Source: a virus | Direction: 5' to 3' (one strand) | Length of the DNA stretch: 40,807 bases | Virus record (IMG/VR): IMGVR_UViG_3300022690_000311 | Span: 1 to 40,807 of that record | Shown: one piece after another, positions 926 to 40,807 of the stretch | Numbering within the stretch: position 1 is the stretch's first letter | Layout of the letters: every line of letters begins with the position of its first letter | The notes under the pieces: model-generated | The model's input: only the letters and a program-made list of their open reading frames with translations | The model's database searches: none | What the model was told of the DNA's origin: nothing | Program-made: the position numbers and the translations under genes

Positions 926-1393
926 TTAAACCTTGCAAAACCTTATTAAATCCAATGGACAGAAATAACATTGCTGTTTTTCATTGTATCTTGAATCGTG
1001 TACTTCTTTCACAGTCCATCTATCACTAGTGTCACTTCTTATCACAGCGACGTGATTCATATTTTTGTTAAATATCAAATAAACATATGGTTTTGGCTTT
1101 GCCCTGTCATAAGATTTCTTTTCACAGACAATAACATCTCCTTGGAATGGATAGTCTTGAGCGCATGTGAAGTCAAAAGAGCGTTTTTTAATTTCTACTC
1201 GCTGTTCTATGAATATATCACCGAAGTCTGAGTGGTTTTGATGATCTCCTCTAGTTTCAGCTTTAGTCGTAGGTGGCATTTTGACACTATATCCAAGTTT
1301 ACCGAGCCATTTGCTTGCTTTAAATACGTCAACTTCACTTTCAGCTAAGAATCTCAGGAATTTTTCATGATTGTCATTATATTTATCCGTCAT
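926..1393 (-). CDS. PD-(D/E)XK nuclease-like phage protein
   Basis: Starting at the ATG at 1393, which overlaps the stop of the replication gene by 11 nt, the product is 155 aa. A longer in-frame opening to 1450 exists but lies inside the replication gene. Residues 57-70 read FGDIF-x5-VEIKKR, a D...E-x-K arrangement (D59, E67, K69) typical of restriction-endonuclease folds. Later segments (DYPFQGDVIV, YVYLIFNK, HVAVI) look like the remaining core strands. I do not know an assigned function. Position between the replication protein and VRR-NUC suggests DNA processing. Confidence 0.65.
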   Translation of the reverse strand: MTDKYNDNHEKFLRFLAESEVDVFKASKWLGKLGYSVKMPPTTKAETRGDHQNHSDFGDIFIEQRVEIKKRSFDFTCAQDYPFQGDVIVCEKKSYDRAKPKPYVYLIFNKNMNHVAVIRSDTSDRWTVKEVHDSRYNEKQQCYFCPLDLIRFCKV

Positions 1394-2201
1394 TTTGTTG
1401 TTTATATTCCTTTTTCCACCTAGCTTCTTGTTGTTTAGCTGTCTCTCCACGACTGTTAACTATCGTTGGCATGTCTTTTACGTCTAAATGTCGGATCCTA
1501 GTTTTTGTCAATGGCTCCATATAATCCTCGTACCTGGCATCTCTGCCAAAAAAGTTCCGCATCCTAATAACAAATTTTCCATCGCCGGTTTTTATTGTGT
1601 CATGATAATTTTTGACATATTGAAATAATTCATTAGTTGATTTCTTGCCGAGTTTTTTAATCAGATTTCTTAGATTTCTTTTTCCTGATGGAATTTCAAC
1701 TGGATTAATATTTTCTTTGTAGAAGCTGGTTATCTCATCGATACAATCCTCAACAGGATCACGCGGACTCAGGTTAAGGGAATCAGGACTCAGGTTAAGG
1801 GAATCAGCCGGACTCGACTGTCGGTTTTCCGGCCTCTCCCGTAATAAAGTTGGCTTGTGGTTTATTTCGTCAAAAGGCTTGATATCAGACCCTCTTTCCT
1901 TCTCATGCTTGTGTGGATTTTGATGTTCAAGAAATTTATTTATCCAAATGAATTTTCCTTCATCGTTTTCATATCTAGTTATAAATTTACCATTTGATAA
2001 ATCATCAAGCATCTTTTTTATATTTAATTTAGGCTCATAAGGGAATATTTCTATATGGATTCTTTCTGGATCATCTTCTAATCTACCTTCACAATCCGCA
2101 TACATCGGAAGGCATATAAAAAGTAACCTTAGATGTGGGTTCATTTTTCCAAGTTTAGAATTTTTAGTAAAGCCTGGTTTTATATTTCTTGATCGAGCCA
2201 T
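1383..2201 (-). CDS. Phage replication protein (initiator / replisome organiser-like)
   Basis: The product is 272 aa. The N-terminus (MARSRNIKPGF, then ADCEGRLEDDPERIHIEIFPYE) is the conserved front of many phage replication-region proteins with a winged-helix fold. The middle (about 125-150) is a low-complexity linker carrying a duplicated DSLNLSP heptapeptide. The C-terminal part (about 150-240) is basic and helical (KRNLRNLIKKLGKKS, FVIRMRNFFGRDARYEDY), as in DnaD-like or loader-binding tails. It is the only candidate initiator in a genome without a recognisable polymerase or helicase. It has its own promoter at 2361-2333 and a structured leader at 2326-2248. Role inferred; no catalytic motif is expected. 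Confidence 0.65.
   Translation of the reverse strand: MARSRNIKPGFTKNSKLGKMNPHLRLLFICLPMYADCEGRLEDDPERIHIEIFPYEPKLNIKKMLDDLSNGKFITRYENDEGKFIWINKFLEHQNPHKHEKERGSDIKPFDEINHKPTLLRERPENRQSSPADSLNLSPDSLNLSPRDPVEDCIDEITSFYKENINPVEIPSGKRNLRNLIKKLGKKSTNELFQYVKNYHDTIKTGDGKFVIRMRNFFGRDARYEDYMEPLTKTRIRHLDVKDMPTIVNSRGETAKQQEARWKKEYKQQNDG
1765..1806. repeat. Perfect 21-bp tandem duplication inside the replication gene
   Basis: Two exact 21-bp copies (1765-1785 and 1786-1806), starting ggactcagg, lie head to tail and in frame; each encodes DSLNLSP. A third, decayed start (ggactcgac) follows at about 1810. Lambdoid phages carry origin iterons inside gene O, so this is a possible origin element, but two copies are few. 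Confidence 0.8.
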
Positions 2202-2247
2202 CTAAGTCTTTTTAACTTTCTCTTCGAAAACGCCCTTCCCTCCCCTG

Positions 2248-2326
2248 TGTAGTACGAGCAGGCCGAAGGCCAGAACGTCAGGGTTAGGTCGGGCGAAATC
2301 TTTAAGCGAAATTCACTCGTACTACA
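2248..2326 (-). ncRNA. Structured 5' leader RNA of the replication gene (candidate)
   Basis: An 11-bp perfect inverted repeat (TGTAGTACGAG at 2326-2316, matching arm at 2258-2248 on the minus strand) encloses 57 nt. That interior contains a GGCC-UUC-GGCC hairpin (2271-2261) and two copies of the heptamer ATTTCGC. The expected transcription start of the upstream promoter falls almost exactly at the first arm, so the transcript would open with this closed structure about 45 nt before the gene. No known RNA family is recognised. A small inverted-repeat element is the alternative. Confidence 0.5.
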
Positions 2327-4890: not shown

Positions 4891-5154
4891 TCAATAGCCA
4901 TAGCCATAGCCAGAGCCATCGCCATAGCCAGAGCCATCGCCATAGCCAGAGCCAGAGCCATAGCCATAGCCATCGCCATAGCCAGAGCCAGAGCCATCGC
5001 CATAGCCAGAGCCATCGCCATAGCCAGAGCCAGAGCCATAGCCATAGCCAGAGCCATCGCCATAGCCAGAGCCATCGCCATAGCCAGAGCCATCGCCATA
5101 GCCAGAGCCATCGCCATAGCCATAGCCAGAGCCATCGGCGCTTAAGCTGTCCAT
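4891..5154 (-). CDS. (Ser/Tyr/Asp-Gly)n repeat protein
   Basis: The product is 87 aa. A 7-residue start (MDSLSAD) is followed by a strict dipeptide repeat in which every second residue is Gly (codon GGC) and the other is Ser, Tyr or Asp (TCT, TAT, GAT). The ATG has GGAG 7 nt upstream and overlaps the end of the DUF6948-like gene, so it is translated by coupling. From memory, similar Gly-Tyr-Ser-Asp repeat proteins occur beside this family in other phages. Function unknown; low complexity suggests a flexible, possibly self-associating chain. Other frames through the repeat are also open but lack start context. Confidence 0.72.
   Translation of the reverse strand: MDSLSADGSGYGYGDGSGYGDGSGYGDGSGYGDGSGYGYGSGSGYGDGSGYGDGSGSGYGDGYGYGSGSGYGDGSGYGDGSGYGYGY
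4897..5136. repeat. Hexanucleotide tandem repeat, 40 units
   Basis: Exactly 240 bp of uninterrupted hexamers on the plus strand: gccata, gccaga or gccatc. Only the last two bases vary. The order is not periodic overall, but the triplet ata-aga-atc recurs many times. All units are in frame with the Gly-repeat gene. Such an array should expand and contract by slippage or recombination without breaking the frame. Confidence 0.97.
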
Positions 5155-11958: not shown

Positions 11959-11986
11959 TTGACTTTGTACGTCACTTTGTTACAAT
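11959..11986 (+). promoter_or_regulatory. Integrase promoter with operator in the spacer
   Basis: -35 TTGACT (11959-11964), 16-nt spacer, -10 TACAAT (11981-11986). The element GTCACTTTGTTAC (11971-11983, one mismatch from a perfect palindrome) sits in the spacer. Predicted start of transcription is at about 11993, on the integrase ATG itself, so the mRNA is probably leaderless. Confidence 0.78.
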
Positions 11987-12650: not shown

Positions 12651-12724
12651 CGGGGATGAGGTGTAATGGTTGCATGTGGGCTTTGGAAGCCTGAGGCACA
12701 GTTCGATTCTGGCATCCCCGACCA
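12651..12724 (+). tRNA. tRNA-Pro (UGG)
   Basis: Acceptor CGGGGAT pairs fully with ATCCCCG, then A73 and encoded CCA (12722-12724). C1-G72 with A73 is the proline signature. Anticodon loop TTTGGAA gives UGG. The T-stem contains an extra A (bulge), so folding is slightly irregular. Confidence 0.85.
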
Positions 12725-12725
12725 T

Positions 12726-12802
12726 GGGGAAGTAGCCCAATTGGCAGAGGCGATGGTCTTAGAAACCATGCGATATAGGTTCGAATCCTATCTTCCCTAC
12801 CA
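12726..12802 (+). tRNA. tRNA-Leu (UAG) with short variable loop
   Basis: Acceptor GGGGAAG/CTTCCCT with G1-U72, anticodon stem ATGGT/ACCAT, loop CTTAGAA (anticodon UAG), T-stem ATAGG/CCTAT, encoded CCA. The variable region is only about 5 nt, whereas bacterial leucine tRNAs are class II with a long arm. Confidence 0.88.
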
Positions 12803-12805
12803 TTT

Positions 12806-12880
12806 AGCGAGATCGTCTAATAGGTAGGACACAGCGCTTTGAACGCTACAATCTTGGTTCGAACCCAAGTCTCGCTACCA
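12806..12880 (+). tRNA. tRNA-Gln (UUG)
   Basis: Acceptor AGCGAGA/TCTCGCT fully paired, anticodon loop CTTTGAA (UUG), T-stem CTTGG/CCAAG with TTCGAAC loop, A73 and encoded CCA at 12878-12880. It begins 3 nt after the CCA of tRNA-Leu. Confidence 0.9.
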
Positions 12881-12883
12881 TAT

Positions 12884-12957
12884 GGTGGATATGATGTAGT
12901 GGCAGCATGACAGACTGTGAATCTGTTCGGCAGGGTTCGAATCCCGTTTCCACCCCA
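12884..12957 (+). tRNA. tRNA-His (GUG)
   Basis: Acceptor GGTGGA/TCCACC, anticodon stem ACAGA-like with loop CTGTGAA (GUG), TTCGAAT T-loop, encoded CCA at 12955-12957. The leading G opposite C is consistent with the extra G-1 of histidine tRNAs. The T-stem has one mismatch. Confidence 0.87.
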
Positions 12958-40512: not shown

Positions 40513-40807
40513 ATAGATTGTTTTTCTTGCTGGAATTTTTCTGTGAGTTCTTTCATTCTTTTCATTGTTTTTTCAATCTCTTTTGACCTTCTTCGTTTTT
40601 CACTTTCAATCAGTAATTCCAGTGCGATCCTCTGTGATATTGTTAAGTTTTCATAAAACTCAGAGATATAACAAGCCGGGCATTCGTCATCATCTTCGTC
40701 ATCGTAAATATCACCGCAATCGGGGCACTCTGTCGGGCAGTTATTACATTCAATCCCTGAGCCATTTACATAACCGCATTCAGGGCAACTGTCATCGTCA
40801 GGGTATG
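40509..40807 (-). CDS. Small multi-zinc-ribbon protein, 3' part (continues from 148-1)
   Basis: The remainder of the gene that starts at 148. From 40807 the frame repeats the zinc-ribbon half, then gives SEFYENLTISQRIALELLIE, followed by a basic coiled tail, and ends at TGA 40511-40509. Without its ATG, which lies beyond the right end, it would look truncated; joining the ends restores 100 aa. Confidence 0.85.
   Translation of the reverse strand, partial: YPDDDSCPECGYVNGSGIECNNCPTECPDCGDIYDDEDDDECPACYISEFYENLTISQRIALELLIESEKRRRSKEIEKTMKRMKELTEKFQQEKQSI
40664..40807. repeat. Terminal redundancy, right copy (identical to 1-144)
   Basis: Exact 144-bp copy of the window start. See the left copy; removing one copy gives a circle of 40663 bp. 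Confidence 0.95.

Follow-up and report, generated by a model that had tools for sequence, protein, structure and literature searches.

What does an inverted-repeat element on the minus strand do between the ssb gene (2478-2870) and the replication initiation protein gene (rep) of a phage, and is it a leader RNA that controls the initiator or a by-product of base composition? The window, that is, the whole stretch of 40,807 nt that was analyzed, is a 40.8-kb virus record. With identical 144-bp repeats at 1-144 and 40664-40807, the record is probably complete, either as a circular genome or as one with terminal repeats. It encodes an integrase-like gene, tRNA genes and a podovirus-type head-tail connector, and the source phage is temperate and podovirus-like. 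The answer that we favor, at a probability of about 0.4, is that the element belongs to a folded 5′ leader of the initiator mRNA that would limit, or time, initiator synthesis. This leader is plausibly an ordinary control region, rather than an established RNA switch of a new kind. It is genuinely intergenic, its promoter is credible and the evidence that it is structured is moderate.

The rep gene and its promoter

The rep gene (1383-2201, minus strand) encodes a protein of 272 aa that matches PHROG 16167 (E 2.1e-35), and its start codon is backed by alignment to two relatives. In lambda O, the iterons lie inside the coding sequence of the initiator. Two 21-bp iterons (GGACTCAGGTTAAGGGAATCA) occupy 1765-1807 within rep and are the likely replication origin, and the initiator family match together with these iterons inside the gene marks the protein as a lambda-O-like initiator. 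Repeats of a like kind, built from 7-bp-based units (CTGATTC / CCTTAAC), were present in the rep genes of relatives L002, L003 and L009-L020, which suggests that initiators of this family share a lambda-like origin inside the gene.

In the window, 276 nt separate rep from the nearest upstream gene, and a terminator scan placed a strong terminator-like hairpin at 2450-2429, separating ssb from the rep promoter. Because this site would close the ssb transcript ahead of the promoter, rep would need a transcript of its own. A sigma70-type promoter (TTGACG-17-TAAAGT, with TG before the −10 box) is located at 2333-2361 on the minus strand, with the expected +1 at about 2326-2327. The consensus match by itself is weak evidence for a promoter, since a consensus scan over 500 bp found one promoter where 0.9 were expected by chance. 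When scored with a sigma70 weight matrix, the site ranked 9th of the 81,542 scored genome positions, a rank that makes it fair to place +1 near 2326, give or take 1-2 nt. The initial annotation had proposed a promoter at 2361-2333 with the first arm of the inverted repeat on its expected +1, and this ranking supports it.

A promoter-like motif, GTCACTTTGYTATAATG, recurs in the window at 11971, 12552, 12978 and 32307 on the plus strand and at 2352 on the minus strand. These sites are found near the integrase start and around the tRNA cluster, with a weaker form at the rep promoter, and at some of them TAC stands just upstream; the motif is possibly a site for a shared phage regulator. The tRNA cluster itself (12652-12957), directly 3′ of the integrase, holds Leu, Gln and His tRNAs and a further tRNA-like sequence (12652-12720) that was detected by Rfam and not by ARAGORN, and it is a possible attachment site. 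Elsewhere in the window, a small ORF on the minus strand (4891-5154) encodes a product made nearly entirely of DGSGYG repeats (MDSLSADGSGYGYGDGSGYGDG...) from an array of 12/18-nt repeats, across which further frames are also open.

Predicted folding of the leader

The sequences TGTAGTACGAG (2248-2258) and CTCGTACTACA (2316-2326) are perfect inverted repeats with 57 nt between them, and reading from the minus strand adds one U·G wobble to the 11-bp pairing. In RNA they would form helix A, with the 5′ arm UGUAGUACGAG at 2316-2326 and the 3′ arm CUCGUACUACA at 2248-2258, around a GGCC-UUC-GGCC hairpin at 2261-2271. Inverted repeats with perfect arms of 11 bp or longer and a loop no longer than 90 nt occurred twice in the window, against a mean of 1.11 in 100 shuffles. 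The isolated 79-nt element folded at −23.1 kcal/mol (z = −2.87 against shuffles), and once composition was corrected for, 116 of the 4,074 same-length genome windows were as extreme or more so. By these counts the 11-bp arms alone are not exceptional, and the notable part is their location at the predicted +1.

The full leader of 126 nt was predicted to fold at −40.8 kcal/mol (a z of only −2.01), and the 11-bp helix is absent from this fold. Instead, the fold contains a stronger, imperfect hairpin, B (2295-2231), which did not appear in the initial annotation and which excludes pairing of the 11-bp arms in any unknotted fold. Its 5′ arm (CGCCCGACCUAACCCUG, 2279-2295) and its 3′ arm (CAGGGGAGGGAAGGGCG, 2231-2247), both on the minus strand, pair in a stem of 5+3+5 bp with two symmetric two-base mismatches, and the 3′ arm directly adjoins that of helix A and holds the sequence GGAGG (2243-2239). 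Taken alone (2231-2296, 66 nt), hairpin B folded at −32.7 kcal/mol with a z of −3.45, and 200 shuffles gave nothing of equal stability, figures that are somewhat flattering in that the ends of the hairpin were picked by the fold itself; 13 of the 4,076 same-length genome windows were equally extreme. The GC content of 2231-2326 is 55% compared to 39% for the genome, within the top 1.4% of windows. Folding was better for the minus strand, that of the mRNA, than for the plus strand (−36.8 versus −30.8), as expected if the RNA is read from the minus strand.

In a folding series, an equilibrium model computed at each RNA length, the probability of helix A was 0.97 at 81 nt, 0.77 at 87 nt, 0.014 at 90 nt and 0 at 96 nt, at which length that of hairpin B was 0.98; the GGCC-UUC-GGCC hairpin was retained in both folds. 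In this model, helix A is probably a folding intermediate and hairpin B the stable fold. The 79-nt element first proposed at this locus is thus upheld in its perfect 11-bp arms and its internal GGCC-UUC-GGCC hairpin, while its closure by the arms is lost from the predicted equilibrium fold (P ~0 from 96 nt onward). The accompanying remark that it resembles no leader recognized at the time agrees with a search of the Rfam covariance models, in which tRNAs alone passed the gathering threshold and nothing significant was found in 2150-2480.

When 2248-2326 was held fixed and the tail was shuffled, 4 of 500 sequences folded equally well, and helix A was lost in 352 of 500 tail shuffles (70%) compared to 24 of 500 random phage tails. 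The loss of helix A is largely due to the composition of the G-rich tail, and since shuffling of the tail alone mostly destroys the helix, a designed switch is not established. No transient helix of 12 bp occurred in 300 shuffles or in 300 phage windows, by a statistic devised after the structure had been seen.

The remainder of the leader (2202-2230, minus strand), running from UUUUCGAAGAG... to UAG|AUG, has no proper Shine-Dalgarno sequence before rep. The anti-Shine-Dalgarno duplex of rep was calculated at −0.9 kcal/mol, 36th among 44 genes, and several further genes of this phage also have no Shine-Dalgarno sequence. The GGAGG at 2243-2239 is, at 37 nt before the AUG, too distant to serve rep directly, and it is only partly paired in hairpin B, where three of the five bases form pairs and the other two fall in a symmetric internal loop.

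In the mechanism that we propose, a leader of about 125 nt on the lambda-O-like initiator mRNA would be read from its own sigma70-type promoter, and helix A (11 bp) would be the first to form during transcription. As the G-rich segment 2247-2231 emerges, the leader would refold to hairpin B (2295-2231), which would take up the strong ribosome-binding-like GGAGG. The leader would keep initiator synthesis low, and perhaps shield the 5′ end, and helix A may set the timing of this while the RNA is being transcribed; low synthesis is the most likely outcome because the rep start codon has no Shine-Dalgarno sequence of its own. The start of the RNA at 2326, its folding in cells, its effect on Rep translation and, with these, control of the initiator by the leader are what we infer from the predicted promoter and folds.

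Relatives and the closest known systems

With rep as the query, L002 and L003 were retrieved at about 51% identity, while protein searches with ssb, portal and terminase for close relatives gave none of use. In all 14 rep relatives (L002, L003 and L009-L020), a same-strand upstream ORF ends no more than 39 nt from the rep start, and in 13 of them it ends within 11 nt of the start or overlaps it. Given how close the upstream gene ends, translation of rep in these relatives is probably coupled to that gene, and with rep directly behind an upstream gene in all 14, the independent leader is peculiar to this phage.

No similarity to the leader DNA was found in phages, plasmids or E. coli genomes, and exact patterns of the arms and B-arms retrieved no related leader from the viral contigs of IMG/VR, a search that possibly left out records very near the window. 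The sole viral-contig pattern match (L004) falls within the coding sequence of a gene in an unrelated phage and was dismissed as chance; the arm-pattern matches in bacterial genomes (L005 and L006) are plain long inverted repeats, no more than chance, and were not accepted as relatives. A mobile element was also rejected, as the element is single copy and has no target-site duplication at the repeat ends. Since the leader was present in no relative found, there is no sign of selection on helix A or hairpin B.

The literature offered analogies only for the leader. The leader of IncI/ColIb-type repZ has a pair of helices with the potential to cross in a pseudoknot. The rep leader described here also has two helices able to cross in this way, but it shows no similarity to any plasmid record, and the one candidate for a leader peptide coupled to rep is a 36-codon open frame that ends at TAG|ATG and has no standard start codon; a consensus scan for a promoter of an antisense RNA, as in the IncI/ColIb type, gave no plus-strand promoter-like site in 2100-2600. 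The hok and aapA3 type I toxin mRNAs form metastable hairpins during transcription (PMC6733600), and the predicted folding here is similar in that an early nascent-RNA hairpin would be replaced by a stabler fold holding a Shine-Dalgarno-like sequence. In contrast to those mRNAs, the gene here is a phage replication gene, its start codon lies 37 nt away from the GGAGG, and no antisense promoter was found. The resemblance is therefore in predicted folding order only, and the leader is not classed as a member of this group, because the GGAGG taken up by hairpin B is away from the start of rep and the search for an antisense partner gave none. The lambda O gene and origin (PMC3985674) are among the closest systems, with an initiator gene as here. 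Unlike lambda and all examined relatives, in which the gene is read in a longer operon, rep here has its own promoter and leader.

Alternative readings and significance of the leader

Almost as likely as a control leader is a region of no special function, a GC-rich remnant left after the usual pre-rep gene was lost and a promoter was put in, with the repeats and the stability as by-products of composition. This is consistent with the appearance of 11-bp repeats of such a span about once per shuffled genome, with the 116 of 4,074 windows that match the 79-nt fold, and with the upstream ORF that adjoins rep in all 14 relatives where, in this phage, a 36-codon open frame ends in a TAG directly ahead of the rep ATG. 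Among the six frames, this alone has a positive codon score, although the signal is weak, and the TAG and the frame may be a trace of an older upstream-gene layout. However, the frame lacks an ATG, GTG or TTG start, no homologue of it was found, 15% of shuffles gave stop-free frames, 6% of which scored as well, and a relic coding frame upstream of rep was rejected on the missing homologue and weak codon signal. Hairpin B, moreover, is still unusual for its composition and the inverted repeat starts at the predicted +1, both of which speak against a functionless remnant. It is unlikely that the locus acts as a DNA control site, in which the 11-bp arms (68 bp centre to centre) would be paired operators for a repressor looping over +1, or in which a promoter palindrome would control and the leader be passive. 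One arm does lie on +1, and the palindrome TGACG-TAATG-CGTCA (TGACGTAATGCGTCA, 2346-2360), a possible operator and the single exact match to TGACGNNNNNCGTCA in the window, overlaps the −35 box; it has a one-mismatch copy at 11960, close to the integrase start, and the spacer motif TACGTCA-N-TTT of the rep promoter is common to sites at 11968 and 32304. Operators usually recur, and so the finding that the 10-bp arm core has no other genome copy at up to one mismatch counts against operators, while the minus-strand wobbles, one beside helix A and one in hairpin B, favor RNA over DNA pairing.

The arms of helices A and B alternate along the RNA, so that an H-type pseudoknot is topologically possible, and the two 3′ arms run together as a continuous 28-nt strand (2258-2231); the folding tools used give no pseudoknot scores. 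We think it quite unlikely that the two helices coexist in this form and act as an RNA switch, specific to this phage, through which the initiator level is set, for instance in response to a ligand or to the initiator. Attenuation is improbable as well: hairpin B followed by UUUUC would end some transcripts near 2227, yielding an RNA of about 100 nt and less read-through to rep, with helix A delaying the terminator. Hairpin B is the long, GC-rich hairpin of an intrinsic terminator, with UUUU directly after it, and helix A precedes it and yields as its second strand emerges. The tract (UUUUCGAA) nevertheless contains only four U's, short of five in eight, the site was not listed in the scan that detected the ssb terminator, and B carries internal mismatches. 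Autoregulation by Rep through an iteron-like leader site, AGGGTTAGG (2280-2288), is very improbable, for despite the resemblance of this site to the AGGTTAAGGG core of the rep iterons, the best gapped match between leader and iterons ranked 154th of 1,292 segments and was not significant.

The folded leader that limits or times initiator synthesis is, at present, a single-genome, testable candidate. If real, it would represent a temperate phage in which a lambda-O-like initiator has a promoter of its own and a folded leader instead of the usual operon coupling, and RNA folding would be a simple means to set the timing of replication.
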